A program made the position numbers and the translations under genes. Under the pieces are notes generated by a model. That model was not told the origin of the DNA, made no database searches, and saw nothing but the letters and a program-made list of their open reading frames with translations. DNA of 64,000 nt from Sinomonas mesophila (lineage in GTDB: Bacteria > Actinomycetota > Actinomycetes > Actinomycetales > Micrococcaceae), in assembly GCF_001999765.1 (NCBI RefSeq), contig NZ_KV908325.1, forward strand, positions 124,256 to 188,255, written 5' to 3'. Of the stretch, positions 15,904-47,429 are shown one piece after another (position 1 is the first letter of the stretch; every line of letters starts with the position of its first letter).

Positions 15904-15966
15904 CAACGCCGCATCGCGACACGCTGCTATCCGGACCGAATAGCGGCGTGTCGCGATGCGGCGTTG
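15904..15966. terminator. Long hairpin (27-bp arms), terminator or repeat element
   Basis: Two 27-base arms with one mismatch (still a G-U pair in RNA) and a 9-base loop (CCGGACCGA). It fills most of the gap between the permease 3' end and the aminotransferase start, so it probably ends the polyamine transcript. The arm contains GCGGCGTGT, also found in the repeat near 37.8 kb. Without a T-tract it may instead be a mobile REP-like repeat. Confidence 0.7.
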
Positions 15967-19774: not shown

Positions 19775-19872
19775 GATGCGGGGTCACCTCCCAGCGTTGC
19801 GGGGTCATGTCCCTGCGATGTGGGGTCACCTCTCAACGTTGCTGGGTCACCTCTTAGAGATCCGGGGTCACA
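19775..19872. repeat. Tandem repeat of a ~21-bp GGGGTCACCTC unit (4-5 copies)
   Basis: Four to five diverged copies of a unit close to GCGGGGTCACCTCCCAGCGT, between the aguB operator and the TetR start. The complementary unit is repeated on the other side of the TetR gene, so the gene lies inside an inverted pair of repeat arrays. Confidence 0.8.
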
Positions 19873-19929: not shown

Positions 19930-20598
19930 GTGACGCCACCAGAGCCGCGACGCAGGGGTCGGCCGACGACGCCCCTCCTGTCGCGCGGGAAGATCACCTC
20001 GGCGGCGCTCGCCGTGATCGGCCGCGCCGGGTACGACGGGCTCACGATGGCGGCGCTCGCCCGCGAACTCAAGACGGCGCCCTCGGCCCTCTACAACCAC
20101 GTGAAGTCCAAGGACGAGGTCCTGAACTGGGTCCAGGACGACGTCAACCAGACCATCGATGTCTCGCGCTTCGCCACCGACCCGTGGGACCAGGCCATTG
20201 CGCGCTGGGCGCGTTCCTACCGTGACGCCTTCGCCGAGCACGCGCCGCTCATCCCCGTCATCGCCGTCCTGCCGATCACCGGTGCGCCGCACACGCTCAC
20301 CATGTACGACACGGTCGCGGAAGGCCTGCGCCGCGGCGGGTGGCCGGAGGACCTGGTCGTGGACGCCATCGTCGCGGTCGAGTCGTTCGTGCTCGGCTCC
20401 GCCATGGACGTCGCGGCCCCCGAGTGGATCTTCGACGTCGGCGCCGAGGGGCACCTTGCGCCGACCTTCGCCGCCGCGGTCGCCGCGCGGCACGGCCGCG
20501 GGACCAGCGCTGCCGACGACGCCTTCGCCCTCGGCCTCAACTCCCTCATCGCGGGCCTCCGGGCCACTCTGGCTGCCACTCTTGCGGCCCGCGGCTGA
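19930..20598 (+). CDS. TetR-family regulator of the polyamine locus
   Basis: 222 residues. The N-terminal helix-turn-helix is LTMAALARELKTAPSALYNH followed by the typical VKSKDEVL. The C-terminal ligand-binding part (~75-222) resembles the TetR_C type seen in TetA repressors. GTG start after GAAAGAGGCGG. It sits between the aguB-aguA-permease operon and the putrescine-oxidase-like gene, each preceded by an AATGAA-centred dyad, so it most likely represses both and responds to agmatine or putrescine (inference). Arrays of a 21-bp repeat flank it on both sides in opposite direction. Confidence 0.88.
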   Translation: MTPPEPRRRGRPTTPLLSRGKITSAALAVIGRAGYDGLTMAALARELKTAPSALYNHVKSKDEVLNWVQDDVNQTIDVSRFATDPWDQAIARWARSYRDAFAEHAPLIPVIAVLPITGAPHTLTMYDTVAEGLRRGGWPEDLVVDAIVAVESFVLGSAMDVAAPEWIFDVGAEGHLAPTFAAAVAARHGRGTSAADDAFALGLNSLIAGLRATLAATLAARG

Positions 20599-20613
20599 TT
20601 CGAGACCCCGCAT

Positions 20614-20680
20614 CGCTGGGAGGTGACCCCGGAATGCTGGGAGGTGACCCCGGAACGCAGGGAGGTGACCCCGGAACGTG
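20614..20680. repeat. Tandem repeat of GCTGGGAGGTGACCCCGGAA (3 copies)
   Basis: Three copies of a ~21-bp unit directly after the TetR stop. It is the reverse complement of the unit upstream of the TetR gene. A transcript over it would fold back on itself only through the partner array, so it is probably not a simple terminator. Confidence 0.8.
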
Positions 20681-35546: not shown

Positions 35547-37031
35547 GTGACGAAGCAGATCTTCACCCTCCCCGACGTCGGCGAGGGGCTGACCGAGGCC
35601 GAGATCGTCGCCTGGAAGGTCAAGCCCGGGGACACGGTCGCGATCAACGACATCATCTGCGAGATCGAGACCGCCAAGAGCCTCGTCGAGCTGCCCAGCC
35701 CCTACGCGGGCACGGTCCTGGACCTTCTGGCTCCCGAGCACCAGACCATCGAGGTCGGCTCGCCGATCATCGCGATCGGCGAGGGCGCGGACGACGGCGT
35801 TGGCGCGCCTTCCGGCGCTGCCTCCAGCGCCTCGGTGGTCGGGTCGCCTTCTGCGCTGGGTGAGTCGCTGGACTCCCCGGTGCCCGTCATGCACGAGCCA
35901 GGCATCGAGAGCGGCCCGCTCGTCGGCTCCGGCCCCAAGGCCGACGCCGCCAAGCGCCGCCCGCGCAGGGCGGCGCCATCGAGCGCGCGGCAGGTTCCGC
36001 CACCGGTCCCTGCCCGGGAGCCGGAGGCCGTGTGGTCGCCGCTCAACAAGCCCGAGGCCCCGGCCGCCGTCGCCCCCACCCAGCCCGCCGCGGAGGTGAC
36101 GGCGCCCGCTCAGGCGCCGAACGCCGTCGTCGGCTTGCTCTCCCGCGTGCTCGCGAAGCCGCCCGTGCGGCGGATCGCGAAGGAGCTCGGGATCAACCTC
36201 GAGGACGTGCCCGCCACCGGCGCGCGCGGCGAGGTGACGCGGGCGGACCTCGAGTCGTACCAGGCCCAGCGTGAGCGCGAGCAGGATGCCGCCCCGACCT
36301 TCTGGGAGCCGGCGAAGAAGGCCCAGCAGCAGCGCGTCGAGGTCATCCCCGTGCGCGGCGTCCGCAAGGCCACGGCCAAGGCCATGGTCGACTCGGCCTT
36401 CTCGGCGCCGCACGTGAGCATCTTCGTGGACGTCGACGCCTCGCGGACCATGGAGTTCGTCCAGCGGCTCAAGAAGTCCCGGGACTTCGAGGGGATCAAG
36501 GTCTCGCCGCTGCTCATCCTCGCCAAGGCCGTCATCTGGGCCGCCGCGCGGAACCCGAGCGTCAACTCGCAGTGGGTCTCGGCGCCAGGCGGCGACGAGA
36601 TCCACGTCAAGCACTTCATGAACCTCGGCATCGCCGCCGCGACCCCGCGCGGCCTGCTCGTCCCGAACATCAAGGACGCGCAGGACCTCTCGCTCAAGGA
36701 GCTCGCGATCGCGCTCAACGAGCTCGCGACCACCGCGCGGGCTGGCAAGACCAAGCCGGCCGACATGCAGGACGGCACGCTGACGATCACGAACATCGGC
36801 GCGCTCGGCATCGACATCGGCACGCCGATCATCAACCCGGGCGAGGTCGCCATCGTCGCGTTCGGCACGATCAAGCAGAAGCCGTGGGTCGTCTCGGGCG
36901 AGGTCATCCCGCGCTGGATCACGACCCTCGGCGGCTCCTTCGACCACCGCGTGGTCGACGGCGACCTGTCCGCGCGCTTCATGGCGGACGTCGCCGCGAT
37001 CATGGAGGAGCCGGCGCTCCTGCTCGACTGA
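35547..37031 (+). CDS. Dihydrolipoamide acyltransferase (E2 component)
   Basis: 494 residues in three domains. Lipoyl domain 1-80 with Lys44 in [12 protein letters not shown]; long Ala/Pro-rich linker (~85-195); subunit-binding domain around 205-240 ([15 protein letters not shown] then [11 protein letters not shown]); acyltransferase 270-494 with active-site His467 and Asp471 in [12 protein letters not shown] start after TAGGAG. The two E1 genes are directly upstream. Substrate class (branched-chain versus pyruvate) is not settled by the sequence; the E2 resembles the branched-chain type. A strong hairpin ends the operon. Confidence 0.94.
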
Positions 37032-37048
37032 CGCTGCTTGCTCATCGG

Positions 37049-37098
37049 CTGCTCCGTTGCCGCCGTCCTGAGGCGTCAGAACGACGGCAACGGAGCAG
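37049..37098. terminator. Terminator hairpin after the E2 gene
   Basis: 22-base arms with two G-U-compatible mismatches and an AGGCGT loop, starting 18 bases after the E2 stop. The convergent HhH gene stop lies seven bases beyond, so the hairpin can end both transcripts. Confidence 0.8.
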
Positions 37099-37104
37099 TT
37101 GACG

Positions 37105-37677
37105 TCACTTCTTGGCGGCGCGCTTGGCTGCCTGCTTCGTGGCGCGCACCTCGAGGAGCGAGGAGGCGTCGACGATGTCCGCGACCGAGCGCTTGCAGCC
37201 CTCCTCGCCGTACGGCCCCGCCACCTCGCGCCAGCCCGCGCCGTCGAAGCCGCCCTGCTTGCCCAGCAGGGCGAGGAAGATGCGCGCCTTCTGCTCGCCG
37301 AACCCGGGGAGGCCCCGCAGCCGGCGCAGCACCTCGGCGCCGTCAGGGTCGCCCTGCCGCCAGATCGCCCCGGCATCGCCGTCCCACTCGTCCACGATCA
37401 CAGAGGCGAGCTGCTGCACGCGCTTCGCCATCGAGCCGGGGAAGCGGTGGACGGCCGGCCTCTCGGCGAAGGCGGCCTGGAATGCTTCGGGGTCCATCGA
37501 TGCGACAGTGGAGGCGTCGAGGCCGCCGAGCCGCTCGCGGAGCTTCTCCGGCCCCGCGAAGGCGGTCTCCATGGGCACCTGCTGGTCCAGGAGCATGCCG
37601 GTCAGGAGTGCGAAGTCGTCCTCGGAGAGGAGCCGGTCTGCGGCGTCGTCGCCGGTGAGGTGAAGGTCACGGGTCAT
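37105..37677 (-). CDS. HhH-GPD-type base excision DNA repair protein
   Basis: 190 residues. The helix-hairpin-helix is LRGLPGFGEQKARIFLALLG (~119-138). It starts TRDLHLTGDDAADRLL with LLTGMLLDQQVPMETAFAGP as in the short actinobacterial HhH-GPD glycosylase-like family. The catalytic Asp expected after the hairpin is not obvious and there is no Fe-S cluster cluster motif, so it may be a degenerate or differently acting glycosylase. C-terminal Lys/Arg tail (KQAAKRAAKK) could bind DNA. Stands alone, followed by a shared terminator. Confidence 0.82.
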   Translation of the reverse strand: MTRDLHLTGDDAADRLLSEDDFALLTGMLLDQQVPMETAFAGPEKLRERLGGLDASTVASMDPEAFQAAFAERPAVHRFPGSMAKRVQQLASVIVDEWDGDAGAIWRQGDPDGAEVLRRLRGLPGFGEQKARIFLALLGKQGGFDGAGWREVAGPYGEEGCKRSVADIVDASSLLEVRATKQAAKRAAKK

Positions 37678-37806
37678 GCCTCTACCTTCGCACGGGAGCT
37701 GGCTTCCCGGACCCCTGGGCGAGGGCTGCCGTTGGCGTCAGCCAGATGCGTCCTTCTTGGATCAACAGTGTTCCCCATCGCCGACTCCCATTGCGGCGTG
37801 TGGCGG

Positions 37807-37907
37807 CGTGCAGGTTTCCCCAGAACCACGTCCCCTAGTGCGGCGTGTCCGCCCGGGCGCGGGCGTGTCGGGCCTGTGGTCCGCCGCATTCTGGGGAAAC
37901 CTGCACG
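37807..37907. repeat. Inverted pair with perfect 19-bp arms (CGTGCAGGTTTCCCCAGAA)
   Basis: The arms lie at 37807-37825 and 37889-37907, separated by 63 bases of GCGGCGTGT-rich sequence. GCGGCGTGT also appears in the hairpin after the polyamine permease. Confidence 0.8.
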
Positions 37908-37972
37908 TGCCACCACCGGTGCCTGTGGCCGGAGGTCGTCAGGCGTCATGGGTCCTCTTTCTCAGGTGTCGT

Positions 37973-38094
37973 GGACGAACCTCCCCAGCTTTGAGGGCGG
38001 CGACCGCTTCGACAGGCTGGGCGGGCCCAGTCGTGACGCGGGTTGAAGCCCAAAGCTGGGGAGGTCCGGCGGCCAATGCTGGGGAGGTTCGTCC
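37973..38094. repeat. GCTGGGGAGGTTCGTCC repeats, one inverted pair plus an inner copy
   Basis: The perfect 17-bp arms are 37973-37989 and 38078-38094; a third, partial copy (CAAAGCTGGGGAGGTCC, 38051-38067) lies between. The word AATGCTGGGGAGGT matches the linker of the repeat next to the polyamine TetR gene. Confidence 0.8.
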
Positions 38095-38143
38095 GGTAGT
38101 GCGGGGAGGGGCCCGATCGGGCGTCTCCTGCCAGACTGGGATC

Positions 38144-38923
38144 GTGCGAGCTCTCCAGGATCCCAACGACCCAGGCCCTCACCCTGGCAGTTCCGGCCCT
38201 GCCAGTTCCCGCCCTGCCAGTTCCCGCCCTGGCACATCCGGCTTTGGCGGTTCCCGTCCAATCGGTCCCCGTCTGGCCAGTTCCGGCCCGACCGTCCCGG
38301 GCCCCGGTCCCACTCCCGCCGAGCCGCCCGCGCGGACGGGGCGGACCGCCGTCGCCCGTGTGGTCAGCGAGGTGTTCCAGCCGCCCTTCACGGTCGGCGC
38401 CATGCTCCTCCTGAGCCCGGCCGCGAGCCCCGGCTGGCCGGGGACGTGGTGGTATGGCGCGCTGGCTGTTCTCTTCGTCTGCGTGCTGCCCTTCGGGATC
38501 CTGCTCGCCCTCGTGCGGGCGGGGCGGGTCGTGGACCACCACGTCAGCGAGCGGGCCCAGCGCGCCCCGGTACTCGTCATGTCCCTCGCGTGCATCACGG
38601 CGGGCATCGTGCTCCTGGCCGCGCTCGGCGCCCCGGCGTCGGTGCTCGCCATGACCGTGGCGCTCGTCGCGGGCGTGGCCGTCATGGCCGTCGTGAGCCT
38701 GCGGTGGAAGATCAGCGGGCACTCGGCCTCCATTGCCGCGGCGGCCGTCGTCTTGCCCCTCCTCCTGGGCCCCGGATGGTGGGCGGCCCTCGCCGTCGTG
38801 CCGCTCGTCGGCTGGGCCAGGGTGACGCTCGGGGCGCACACGCTCGGCGAGGTCCTCGCAGGCATCGCGACCGGCCCCCTGATCATCGTCGGCCTGTGGA
38901 TGCTGCTGCTCAGGGCGGCCTGA
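38144..38923 (+). CDS. PAP2-superfamily phosphatase-like membrane protein
   Basis: 259 residues, about six membrane helices after a Pro/Ser/Gly-rich N-terminus (~60 residues). PAP2 motifs are recognisable but altered: VDHHVSERAQRAP for C1, SGHSASIAAA for C2, RVTLGAHTLGEVLAG for C3 with its His. The actinobacterial small PAP2 branch often has this form. A role in removing phosphate from undecaprenyl or phosphatidic acid is possible. GTG start at 38144 chosen from frame and from TGGGATC; a start further up would run through the repeats. The N-terminus is coded by 15-bp tandem repeats. Confidence 0.75.
   Translation: MRALQDPNDPGPHPGSSGPASSRPASSRPGTSGFGGSRPIGPRLASSGPTVPGPGPTPAEPPARTGRTAVARVVSEVFQPPFTVGAMLLLSPAASPGWPGTWWYGALAVLFVCVLPFGILLALVRAGRVVDHHVSERAQRAPVLVMSLACITAGIVLLAALGAPASVLAMTVALVAGVAVMAVVSLRWKISGHSASIAAAAVVLPLLLGPGWWAALAVVPLVGWARVTLGAHTLGEVLAGIATGPLIIVGLWMLLLRAA
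38186..38260. repeat. 15-bp tandem repeat inside the PAP2 gene
   Basis: Imperfect copies of GCCAGTTCCCGCCCT give the peptide repeat SSGPA/SSRPA/SSRPG/TSGFG/GSRPI in the cytoplasmic N-terminal tail. Copy number may differ between strains. Confidence 0.7.
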
Positions 38924-38953
38924 GGAACACATTGCCTCCGCGTCTCCATCGCG

Positions 38954-39043
38954 CGCGAATGGCTGTTTCCGCCACCTCATGAGGCGCGGTCGCTGGGCGC
39001 GGTGGTCGACGCAGACAAGCTCGCCCGCTACCGTCAGGACTGA
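38954..39043 (+). pseudogene. 3' remnant of catB (muconate cycloisomerase)
   Basis: The short frame ending at 39041-39043 reads LFPPPHEARSLGAVVDADKL then ARYRQD, close to the C-terminal pattern of enolase-superfamily cycloisomerases (LGVxVDEDxVARYRxD). It lies directly in front of catC, where catB is found in catechol operons. No catalytic barrel is present, so it is a scar of a deletion that left catC. Identification rests on a short motif and on gene order. Confidence 0.5.
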
Positions 39044-39085
39044 CCGGTCCCGTCCCCCGCCCGCCCCGAGTCCCAGGAGACCATG

Positions 39086-39403
39086 ATGCTCTTCCTCGTC
39101 CGCATGGACGTCCACCTCCCGCCGTCCATGCCCGCGGCGCAGTCCGACCTCATCAAGTCCCGCGAGAAGGCCTACTCGCAGAAGATCCAGCGCGACGGGC
39201 GCTGGGTCCACCTCTGGCGCGTCGCCGGGGAGTACGCGAACTACTCCGTCTTCGACGTCGCGAGCAACGACGAGCTGCACGAGATCCTCTCGAAGCTGCC
39301 GCTGTTCCCGTACATGGACATCTCGGTCACGCCGCTCGCGCACCACCCCTCGGACATCCACCCGGTGGACGACGCGCGGGACGCCGGCCCGGAAGCCACC
39401 TAG
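39086..39403 (+). CDS. catC: Muconolactone delta-isomerase
   Basis: 105 residues; isomerises muconolactone to 3-oxoadipate enol-lactone in the beta-ketoadipate pathway. The protein starts MLFLVRMDVHLPPSMP and carries Arg/Trp-rich GRWVHLWRVAGEYANYSVF and the His of LAHHPSDI. The ATG at 39086 has six bases from AGGAG; an ATG three bases upstream is also possible. The C-terminal tail is ~10 residues longer than usual. Stop codon overlaps the glutamate dehydrogenase stop. catA, catB, pcaD and regulators are absent from the window, so it may not be in a working pathway. Confidence 0.9.
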   Translation: MLFLVRMDVHLPPSMPAAQSDLIKSREKAYSQKIQRDGRWVHLWRVAGEYANYSVFDVASNDELHEILSKLPLFPYMDISVTPLAHHPSDIHPVDDARDAGPEAT

Positions 39404-42400
39404 TTCCGCAGGAGCGTCCGCAGGAGCTTGATCGCCACCGAGATGGACTCGATGTCCACGCTGCCCTCGCGCATGACCTCGGCGAACGTCTCCCGGATCC
39501 GCCCCAGCTGTTCGGCGTAGCCCGACTCCCACTCGGCGATGCGCTCCTCCGCCGTCGCCCCGCGGCCACCCACCGCGCCCCGCGGCAGGGTCGACTGGAG
39601 CACTCTCGTGGTCATGTCCGTGACCGCCGCATAGACGTCGTCGCGCAGGGCCGCGCGTGCGAGGGCCTCCCAGTGGCTCTCCCGCGGGAGGTCGGTGATG
39701 CGCAGCAGGAGGCTCGCGGCGCCGATCCAGTAGAAGACGGCGTAGTAGACGTCGGCGATCGTCGGGATGGGCTCATCCACGGCCTCCGAGATCGTGGAGA
39801 TGTCCAGGAGCCCGAAGCTCTCGAGCGAGTCCGCCGCGCGCGTGGCCATGGGGTCGGGGAGTCCGACCTCCCGCCAGTGCGCGAGCCGCCCGTTCACGCG
39901 CTCGAGGTCGGTGCCGCGCAGGTAGTCGGACGTGTGGGCGCGCAGCAGCTCGAGCGTCGGCGCGACGCGCGCATACGCCCGCTCGACCGGCTGGTCCCGG
40001 TGGTCGTGGGTGACATACCAGCGCACGCCGCGGTCGAGGAGCCGGCGCAGGTGGACGGCCGCGGCCGCGCTGTGTTCGCGGGGGAAGCCGGGCGGGAGCG
40101 TGGCGAGGGCGTCGGCGAGCTCGCCGAGGCCGTAGGCATCGCGGACGACGACGAACGCCCTGGCCATCGCGGCGGCCGTGGCCGTGGTCTCCTCGCGCAC
40201 GCGGAACGCGAAGGTGATCCCGCCGAGGTTGATGATCTCGTTCGCCATGACGGTCGCGATGATCTCGCGGCGCAGCGGGTGCGTGGGCAGCTCGTCCGCG
40301 AAGCGCCGAGAGAGTGCGGCGGGGAAGTACGAGGCCAGCACCCGGTCGAACCATGGGTCGTCGGCGAGGTCGCTCGCGGCCAGCTCGTCCGCGAGCTCGA
40401 TCTTGGCGTAGGCGGCGAGGATCGCGAGCTCGGGCGAGGTCAGGCCGTGCCCGTCCCGGAGCCGGGCGTGCAGGGCGTCGTCGTCCGGCAGCCCCTCGAG
40501 CCGCCGATCCAGCCCCGCCGTGGCGCCAAGCCAGTCCATGGTCCGCTCGAAGCCCTGGCTCCACTCCTTGACGAGGGCCCGGTCGTTCAGGAGCAGCACG
40601 TTCTGCTGCGCATTCGTCGCCAGGACCAGGCGCGAGACCTCGTCGGTGAGGGAGTGCAGGAAGGGCGCCCGCTCGTCCGCGCGGAGGTGGCCGGCGGCGA
40701 TCATCCGGTCGGTGAAGACCTTGATGTTGACCTCGTGGTCGGAGCAGTCGACGCCCGCCGAATTGTCGATCGCGTCCGAGTTCACGAGCACGCCGTTGAG
40801 GGACGCCTCGATGCGCGCGAGCGGGGTCAGCCCCAGATTGCCGCCCTCGGCGACGACCCGCGCGCGCAGCTCGGGGGCGTCGATCCGGACCGCGTCGTTG
40901 GCCTTGTCCCCGACGTCCAGGTGTGTCTCCGATGTTGCCTTGACGTACGTGCCGATGCCGCCGTTGTAGAGCAGGTCGACCGGCGCCCGGAGGATCGCCT
41001 GGATGAGCTCGGGCGGTGTCAGGGCCTCGGCGGACTCCGGCAGCCCGAGGGCCGCGCGGGCCTGCGGGCTCAGCTCGACGGACTTGGCCCGGCGCGAGTA
41101 CACGCCGCCGCCGGCGCTGATCAGGGATTCGCTGTAGTCCTCCCACGACGAGCGCGGCAGCTCGAAGAGCCGGCGGCGCTCGCGGTGCGACACCAGCGGG
41201 TCGGGGGACGGGTCGAGGAAGATGTTCCGGTGGTCGAACGCGGCGACGAGCCGCAGGTGCTCGGACAGGAGCATGCCGTTGCCGAAGACGTCCCCGCTCA
41301 TGTCCCCGATTCCGACGACGGTCACCTCCTCGCGCTGGACGTCGACGCCGAGCTCGGCGAAGTGGCTCCTGACGGACTCCCACGCCCCGCGCGCCGTGAT
41401 GCCCATGCGCTTGTGGTCGTACCCGACCGAGCCGCCCGAGGCGAACGCGTCCCCGAGCCAGAAGCCGTACTCTGCCGCGATCGCGTTGGCCGTGTCCGAG
41501 AAGGCCGCCGTGCCCTTGTCCGCCGCGACGACGAGGTAGGAGTCGTCGCCGTCGTGCTTCACGACGCGCTCCGGTGGGACGACGCGTGCCAGCGGCATGG
41601 CGAGTCTGGGCTGCGCGGCCGGCTCCTGCTGCGCGAGGTCGGCCTGGCTGAGGTTGTCCGTGACGTCGAGGAGCCCACGGATGAAGGTGCGGTAGGCCTC
41701 CAGGCCCTCCTCGAGCCAGCCGGCGCGGTCGAGGGCGGGGTCGGGGAGCCGCTTGGGGTAGAAGGCGCCCTTCGCGCCGGTCGGCACGATGACGGCGTTC
41801 TTGACGGCCTGCGCGCGCACGAGCCCGAGGACCTCGGTGCGGAAGTCCTCGCGCCGGTCGGACCAGCGCAGCCCGCCCCGGGCCACGGGGCCGTAGCGCA
41901 GGTGCACGCCCTCGACCCTCGGCGAATACACCCAGATCTCGTACGCCGGGCGGGGGGAGGGCGCGAAGGGCAGCGCGGACGGATGGAGCTTGAGGCTCAG
42001 GTGGCCCTTGCCCTGGTAGTAGTTCGTGCGCAGCGTCGCCTCGACGAGCGCCGCGTCCATGCGCAGGAGGCGGTCGGCGTCGAGGGAGGGGACGGCGTCG
42101 ACCGCCGCGGACAGACGACGCCGGGCGGCGGCGATGCGGTGCTGCCGCACGGCGTCGTGAACGCTGTGGGGATCGCCGCCGACCCCCTCGAGGTCCGGGT
42201 CGAACCGCGCCTCGAACAGCTCCAGGAGCGCCTGCGTGGCCTCGGGGTTCTGGAGGAGCGCGTCGGCCATGAAGCCGTAGGAGATTGTCGTGCCGAGCTG
42301 CTGGAGGTACTTCGCATAGGCGCGCAGGATCGTCACGCGGCGCCAGTCGAGGCCCTCGAGCAGCACGAGGGCGTCGAAGCGGTCCGACTCGGCGTCGCCG

Positions 42401-47324: not shown

Positions 47325-47351
47325 GGCCCCATCCAAGCACGCTCATGAGGG

Positions 47352-47387
47352 GGGATGTGACCCCTCAATGTTGAGGGGTCACATCCC
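47352..47387. terminator. Hairpin GGGATGTGACCCCTCAA with perfect 17-bp arms
   Basis: Inverted repeat with a two-base TG loop between the ABC ATPase gene and the kinase gene, in an operon-internal position. A further direct copy of TTGAGGGGTCACCT follows at 47393-47406. The word GGGGTCACCTC links it to the repeats around the polyamine TetR gene. Confidence 0.7.
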
Positions 47388-47429
47388 ATGGCTTGAGGGG
47401 TCACCTGACGCCCTCCCATGACGCGAAGG

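Follow-up and report, generated by a model that had tools for sequence, protein, structure and literature searches.

Sinomonas, a genus of soil bacteria, carries in its genomes intergenic arrays of short words, repeated head to tail in units of 21 nt (22 nt in some genomes), that stand alone or as inverted pairs. We put the probability at about 0.5 that these arrays, which fall into class A, class E, class D and other word classes, are a non-autonomous, non-coding repeat population of Sinomonas that behaves like REPINs or BIMEs. The window analysed here is a stretch of 64,000 nt from Sinomonas mesophila (contig NZ_KV908325.1). Its genome is referred to as G000 and the other genomes of the genus as G001 to G014, 15 in all.

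A class A element between two divergent predicted genes

The inverted repeat at positions 37973-38094 of the window is one copy of a dispersed element of about 100 nt, which we call class A. Its left arm on the plus strand (37973-37993), the word CCTCCCCAGCTTTG, is 21 nt long and 95% complementary to 38074-38094, and a third arm lies at 38051-38068. The right arm consists of two units on the plus strand, CCAAAGCTGGGGAGGTCCGGCGG (38050-38072) and CCAATGCTGGGGAGGTTCGTCCG (38073-38095), which are spaced 23 nt apart and form a 23-nt direct repeat (83%). The class A model R1, for which this copy was one of 27 sources, matches 37971-38073 on the plus strand with 75.9 bits (E 5.4e-11). When 37965-38100 was folded as RNA, an energy of -81.3 kcal/mol was obtained (z -5.32), which none of 200 shuffles equalled. 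The palindrome at 37.8 kb (37806-37908, minus strand) also belongs to class A. It was outside the model-building set, and R1 matches it with 38.8 bits (E 1.7e-4); its arms, 37807-37825 and 37889-37907, are 19 nt long and 100% complementary, and its fold has a z of -6.64.

Adjacent to these copies are a minus-strand gene for an HhH-GPD protein (37105-37677), whose Pfam score exceeds the curated cut-off, and a plus-strand PAP2-like gene (38360-38923), with an E of 5e-5 that is under the Pfam cut-off. Since the starts of both face 37973-38094, this class A copy lies between divergent predicted genes. As the PAP2-like frame is open back to 37676, the element could formally sit in a long N-terminal extension; similarity to relatives begins only near 38340. 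The same open frame also holds a 15-nt tandem repeat, TGCCAGTTCCCGCCC, at 38185-38289, upstream of the predicted PAP2-like gene. A terminator scan of 36000-40000 returned a single terminator-like site, at 37735-37749, and no T-run at the 37973-38094 element, and Rfam searched at the gathering score gave only a tRNA in the window. In the loci that were read, relatives of the PAP2 and HhH-GPD genes stand in other neighbourhoods and the window gap is not syntenic, so that no insertion border is readable at this locus.

Class A copies across the genus

Used as a DNA query, 37965-38110 had relatives in 8 of the 15 Sinomonas genomes. For the exact 11-mer GCTGGGGAGGT, the genome shows hardly any enrichment (9 matches versus 5 for the reversed-word control); five of the nine lie in or beside a class A copy, and the surroundings of several are similar. 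A pattern drawn from the right half of class A gave 41 matches in 11 of the 15 genomes and none for the reversed control, and in a search of 84,980 species the exact pattern was found in eight stretches, all from Sinomonas. Using profile R1, which was built from 27 of 32 copies, we found at least 76 class A matches in 12 of the 15 genomes. Individual genomes had between 0 and 13, and the total, which includes one place in G006 twice (once per strand), is a minimum because scoring was confined to 150 of the several thousand candidates in each genome. With the same number of candidates scored, R1 had no match in G002-G004. A plasmid collection contained no match for class A, E, J and D arrays.

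The core of class A is about 100 nt long, with the edges TCCCCAGCTTT and AAAGCTGGGGA, and many copies add tandem units on one or both sides, the unit consensus being approximately cCnAAAGCTGGGGAGgtCGGC. Conservation of the right half is partly by construction, since the copies were searched for with it; neither the left word nor the inner motif CGACACGCCG belonged to that pattern. The arms are matched within a class A copy, but weakly: when the left word is compared with the right, 5.9 of 11 positions match within a copy and 5.1 between copies, and none of 10,000 permutations reached the within-copy value (67 copies, after removal of 8 near-duplicates from 75). The locus-specific palindromic word that a preliminary description of this DNA had proposed is present in class A to this weak degree. 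In the 27-copy alignment, the outer stem has 33 two-sided changes versus 21.0 ± 3.8 after shuffling (0 of 500 shuffles), with a control that ignores the relatedness of the copies. A structured non-coding RNA core was considered and rejected; RNAalifold gave six pairs at an energy of -5.66, none of them with two-sided changes, and R1 is therefore effectively a sequence profile.

Read by eye, class A copies can be nested in E-type arrays, for example at loci L146, L232 and L144. At locus L134 (G000 C3 346286-346651), a class H array of CGAAATGGGG words encloses an A-like inverted pair, forming nested palindromes; this pair is absent from the R1 match list. The window also has, at 15904-15966, a near-perfect 31-bp palindrome with GCGACACGC that resembles the class A inner motif and is like one at G000 C3 107510.

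Several word classes coexist within one genome

In a 464-kb sample of G000 (the window plus C3 1-400000), strong inverted repeats with a score of at least 15 were found in 32 of 221 intergenic gaps, some of them simple hairpins, and in none in each of five two-letter-block shuffles. Several word classes coexist within one genome, and the commonest in this sample is class E, with 21-nt units GCGGGGTCACCTCCCAACGTT and the consensus GCATCGCAGGGAGGTGACCCC. The TetR gene of the window (20014-20598) has class E arrays on both sides, inverted to each other. The left array (19776-19872, plus strand) has units such as GCGGGGTCACCTCCCAGCGTT at 19780, 19801, 19822 and 19843 and a partial fifth, and the right array (20604-20676, listed on the plus strand) comprises three 21-nt units that are inverted relative to those on the left. 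A short class E palindrome, GGATGTGACCCCTCAATGTTGAGGGGTCACATCC, was seen in the sequence at 47348-47391. Class D, with the word TTTCGGGTACGTATCTCG, includes the element at 2.3 kb, an inverted array at 2283-2530 with the words TTTCGGGTACATATCTCG and CGAGATACGTACCC, whose word also occurs at G000 C3 185609 and 301356. Further classes in the G000 sample are F (CCCCGTGTTTCGGA), H (CGAAATGGGG) and J (GAGAGGTGGCCACTC). The array at 20.6 kb is one-armed and folds like its shuffles. The DNA folds of six single units or near-unit stretches were equalled or bettered by 35 to 150 of 200 shuffles; for the two stretches taken from L384 and L397, the register was only approximate.

The preliminary description had singled out a word of the 37973-38094 element and one of the 20.6-kb array. 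Both are real, and each is present once in the window: AATGCTGGGGAGGT at 38075 and AATGCTGGGAGGT at 20633. The linker that the two were said to share comes down to a motif of about GCWGGG(G)AG, which is all that the class A and class E consensus sequences have in common, as judged without a significance test; the exact shared 14-mer and 13-mer occurred once and not at all, respectively, in a 400-kb sample. Homology between the two is suggested by this motif but unproven. The elements at 2.3, 20.6, 37.8 and 37.9 kb had also been taken as one class. Those at 37.8 and 37.97 kb do share class A, whereas those at 2.3, 20.6 and 37.9 kb belong to three classes.

Spelling and spacing by genome

One spelling predominates in each genome and differs by species, even beside the same gene. 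The pattern GGGANNNGACCCC, searched twice in tandem, had 111 matches in G000, 74 in G001, 45 in G003 and 43 in G004, pair matches within one array not being independent; it was positive in 10 of the 15 genomes, and its reversed control gave 0. Together with the class A matches described above (at least 76, in 12 of the 15 genomes), the 111 class E pair matches of G000 bear out the expectation that further copies exist. In sampled clusters, the commonest centre of GGGA-N4-ACCCC was GGTG in G000 (48 of 85 units), CGGG in G001 (62 of 69) and CATG in G003 (36 of 46), the pattern for G001 and G003 having fixed the last letter of the centre and left three of its four letters free. The spelling of G000 is accordingly mixed, and a small sample from G010 had GGTG and CATG in equal number, three each. 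Units were spaced 21 nt apart in 55 of 56 cases in G000, 22 nt in 56 of 56 in G001 and 21 nt in 28 of 28 in G003, where spacings of 17-27 nt were counted and the G001 and G003 arrays had been selected by a pattern allowing 19-23 nt. The word of G014 differs (CGACGAGTGGCCACCTCTC, with 22-nt spacing), and a second word, GCCAGAGACCCC, occurs in G001 and G010.

The elements had been described as an intergenic class with a constant linker and a locus-specific palindromic word. A class with constant and variable parts does exist, but its word is genome-wide, and it is the short linker that appears locus-specific, clearly so in G001 only. Linker identity in that genome was 0.86 within arrays versus 0.67 between arrays; the corresponding values were 0.72 versus 0.69 in G003 and 0.64 versus 0.62 in G000.

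Among 149 sampled genomes of the family, three, each from Sinomonas, contain the two-unit form of the G000 spelling; genomes sampled from 31 other genera gave no match to this class E spelling, the one that the pattern search outside the genus covered. Among non-coding tandem places with periods of 17-27, a period of 21-22 was observed in 17 of 21 in G000, 7 of 10 in G014, 5 of 10 in G010 and 4 of 6 in G011. No period-21/22 place was detected in 100 kb from each of four genomes of other genera, or in 100-kb samples of G002, G005 and G006, themselves Sinomonas. With these three samples lacking such places and G002-G004 lacking class A matches, the density of arrays varies much within the genus.

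The inverted arrays are not confined to one polarity. Of 16 clusters in G000, 8 were of the +- type and 3 of the -+ type, compared with 4 and 3 of 10 in G003 and 1 and 1 of 10 in G001, and one-armed arrays made up 5 of 16, 3 of 10 and 8 of 10 clusters in these genomes, respectively. A shuffle of the G000 sample yielded one cluster in the same count.

Arrays beside the same gene in different species

The TetR gene was found in 14 genomes and its flanks were read by eye. Arrays lie on both sides in eight (G000-G005, G010 and G011) and on the right only in two (G012 and G014), and there is none, or one weak unit, in four (G006, G007, G008 and G013). In the first eight, both sides bear the same or a close word (only partly so in G002), and about five spellings are seen beside the gene: those of G000, of G001, of G002, of G003-G005 and of G010-G011.

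A second conserved gene is followed by a two-armed E array in G000 and by one-armed E arrays in G010 (four units) and G011 (three units). The same position is occupied by D-like words in G005 and G006, by J-like words in G008 and G012, by one J-like unit in G007 and by a different hairpin in G002-G004, and it has no clear array in G001, G009, G013 and G014; the right-hand gene was not found within the same locus in 7 of the 15 loci.

G010 and G011 are about 97-99% identical over a stretch of about 190 kb, and their array lengths differ at several gaps. At about 100.6 kb of G010 C3, a segment of roughly 480 nt that contains E units together with two copies of class A corresponds to 21 nt in G011. 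As this difference has no clean duplication or borders, and part of the outer arm remains in G011, a deletion may be as likely as an insertion. In the same pair of genomes, a stretch of some 70 bases, almost exclusively G, stands at locus L173 (G010 C3, about 135663-135737) in an otherwise syntenic place and is absent from G011; it may be an assembly or sequencing artefact.

Position relative to genes

The 75 class A copies include 6 at locus edges and 2 that overlap predicted genes. The 69 that could be placed comprise 27 in convergent, 36 in tandem and 6 in divergent gaps. Relative to the gaps of G000 (41 convergent, 114 tandem and 66 divergent), convergent positions are enriched (p 0.001) and divergent ones depleted (p 0.0002), in a comparison where the baseline is G000 only, the copies come from 12 genomes and genes were called with a simple purpose-written finder. 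Distances below 115 nt account for 66 of 90 measured to gene 3' ends versus 11 of 48 to 5' ends. Period-21/22 places were convergent in 17 cases, tandem in 13 and divergent in 3 (four Sinomonas samples, those of the near relatives G010 and G011 overlapping). Strong inverted repeats, simple hairpins included, were found in 16 of 41 convergent gaps of the G000 sample versus 16 of 180 others (p 9e-6).

Insertion sequences and the arrays

In Sinomonas, both ends of IS21 and IS481-like copies carry multiple repeated words. At locus L069, four words stand at the left end and inverted ones at the right; L064 has three words, at 24 and 44 nt, and the end words of L080 and L070 are spaced 24-26 nt apart. 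L064 and L069 pass the curated family cut-offs, and L070, L080 and L266 do not. None of the 56 IS21/IS481-type loci that were fetched, a part of all matches, has A or E words as element ends, and no mobilising enzyme for the arrays was identified when these loci were examined for matching ends. IS21/IS481 transposons are not supported as the source of the arrays, given this absence of A or E ends in the fetched loci and a polarity that is not fixed. G000 has the most class E pair matches, yet no IS481 match above the cut-off.

Array words do lie just outside IS481-like copies: E words in L080, D words in L266 and A words in L070/L265 and L083/L276. The copy in L080 sits within an E-type array and that in L266 within a D-type array. 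Since their target duplications of about 15 bp (15-16 letters) are made of array sequence, the arrays are shown as targets, not sources. Seven actinobacterial plasmid records contain matches to the IS481-like copy of L080, evidence only that this IS is widespread.

IS481-type insertion sequences with multi-word ends and target duplications of about 13-16 bp were recorded at L069 (1326-2694), L264 (1162-2501), L080 (1095-2512), L266 (1129-2511) and L277 (1328-3021). The letters shared by the two flanks number 16 in L069, besides the tip letters, 13 in L264 and 14 in L277. The copy in L069 is situated at a tRNA-Arg 3' end; insertion at a tRNA was also considered for L264 and rejected, ARAGORN having found no tRNA there.

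Discussion

As members of a REPIN- or BIME-like repeat population, copies of the arrays would spread within a genome as passive units, either through a recombinase or transposase acting in trans or through recombination between words. Unequal exchange would lengthen and shorten the arrays, with fast change in unit number, and exchange between copies would maintain one predominant spelling. Insertions would survive chiefly downstream of genes, and inverted pairs at such places may, as a side effect, give rise to transcript hairpins. The arrays lie closer to the 3' than the 5' ends of genes, and the number of units varies between close relatives. Respelled arrays beside the same gene exceed what simple insertion predicts, and ask for concerted turnover or for selection on position. 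A role of the arrays at transcription-unit borders is possible and would explain why some positions are constant.

Modular intergenic repeats with constant and variable modules are familiar as the neisserial NIME/dRS3 and the pneumococcal BOX elements, to which the Sinomonas arrays can be likened for their modularity rather than by a comparison of sequences. REP, REPIN and BIME repeats are short and extragenic, form inverted pairs, are present in many copies and belong to families some of which are restricted to one species (PMC3116915, PMC3733652); REP dimers are in some cases enclosed by other palindromes (PMC3733652). The Sinomonas arrays are likewise short, extragenic and present in many copies; many are inverted pairs, but one-armed arrays make up 5 of 16, 8 of 10 and 3 of 10 clusters in G000, G001 and G003. 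The nesting of class A in E-type arrays is like that of REP dimers in other palindromes. Unlike REPs, the Sinomonas units stand in strict 21/22-nt tandem, are not clear stem-loops when single, and have a class A and E consensus without the GTAG or CGTC tag that PMC3733652 gives for REPs. We do not claim that the arrays belong to the REP family. The DNA uptake sequences (DUS) of the Neisseriaceae, as presented in PMC3630211, have one spelling that is conserved within a species and different between relatives, and form intergenic inverted pairs; the Sinomonas arrays resemble these dialects on each of these counts. DUS, however, are 10-12-mers in thousands of copies (PMC3630211), whereas the Sinomonas words are longer, gave no more than 111 pair matches in any genome under the pattern applied, and are arrayed. 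REPINs (PMC3116915) and DUS dialects (PMC3630211) are the nearest behavioural parallels; the tested defining features of both fail here. Searches of the open PMC library, largely by title and start of abstract, yielded no account of such arrays in Sinomonas or its relatives and no description of a repeat population with genome-specific spelling.

The inverted multi-site arrays also resemble the ends of the IS21 and IS481-like copies of the genus, which do have repeated end words, and two-armed arrays with a short interior look like MITEs. The arrays could accordingly be multi-site ends of IS21/IS481-type DDE transposons left behind as MITEs, each word class being the site of one transposase. 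We regard such an origin as unlikely, given that none of the 56 fetched loci has A or E words as its own ends or a matching transposase, that the insertions in L080 and L266 show arrays as targets, not sources, that arrays of both polarities, unexpected of transposon ends, occur alongside one-armed ones, and that G000, the genome richest in class E pairs, is without an IS481 match over the cut-off. It is similarly doubtful that the arrays are selected binding-site clusters or hairpins at transcription-unit borders, serving as bidirectional terminators or insulators, with a word that co-evolves with a protein. The enrichment of strong inverted repeats in convergent gaps (16 of 41 versus 16 of 180) and the change of spelling at fixed positions favour this idea, as do the unit length, which at the helix pitch of DNA comes to about two turns, and the strong folds of both class A copies of the window (z -5.3 and -6.6). 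The covariation excess in the outer class A stem (33 versus 21.0 ± 3.8) also points this way, but it is expected from arm exchange as well and comes from a control uncorrected for relatedness. The 37973-38094 copy, moreover, lies between divergent genes and is without a T-run, one-armed arrays cannot form a hairpin, and no clear array stands behind the second conserved gene in G001, G009, G013 and G014, three of which differ in the neighbouring gene.

Hairpins near stop codons, as suggested by the 66 of 90 class A 3'-end distances below 115 nt, would be expected if the arrays were ordinary intrinsic terminators. The absence of a T-run, the tandem units, the one-armed arrays and the genome-specific spelling make this very improbable, as does the 20.6-kb array, which folds no better than its shuffles. 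The preliminary description was right to expect more than a common terminator stem: the 37973-38094 element has no T-run and lies between divergent genes, and the 20.6-kb array has one arm and folds like shuffled sequence. More speculative, and to our minds a long shot, is the notion that each Sinomonas lineage spells its transcription-unit borders in a word of its own, read by a putative sequence-specific DNA-binding protein. Arrays would then be spaced by two helical turns, word and protein would change together, and dispersed sites would be respelled in concert while many positions stay.

For the genus, the intergenic arrays have practical consequences, as they can mislead terminator and small-RNA annotation and serve IS481-like copies as landing sites. 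Set-wise change of repeat populations is familiar mainly from REPINs and uptake sequences. The respelling of dispersed sites in Sinomonas, a small genus of free-living bacteria, partly at conserved positions, would offer a tractable system for repeat populations, or pairs of site and protein, that change as a set.
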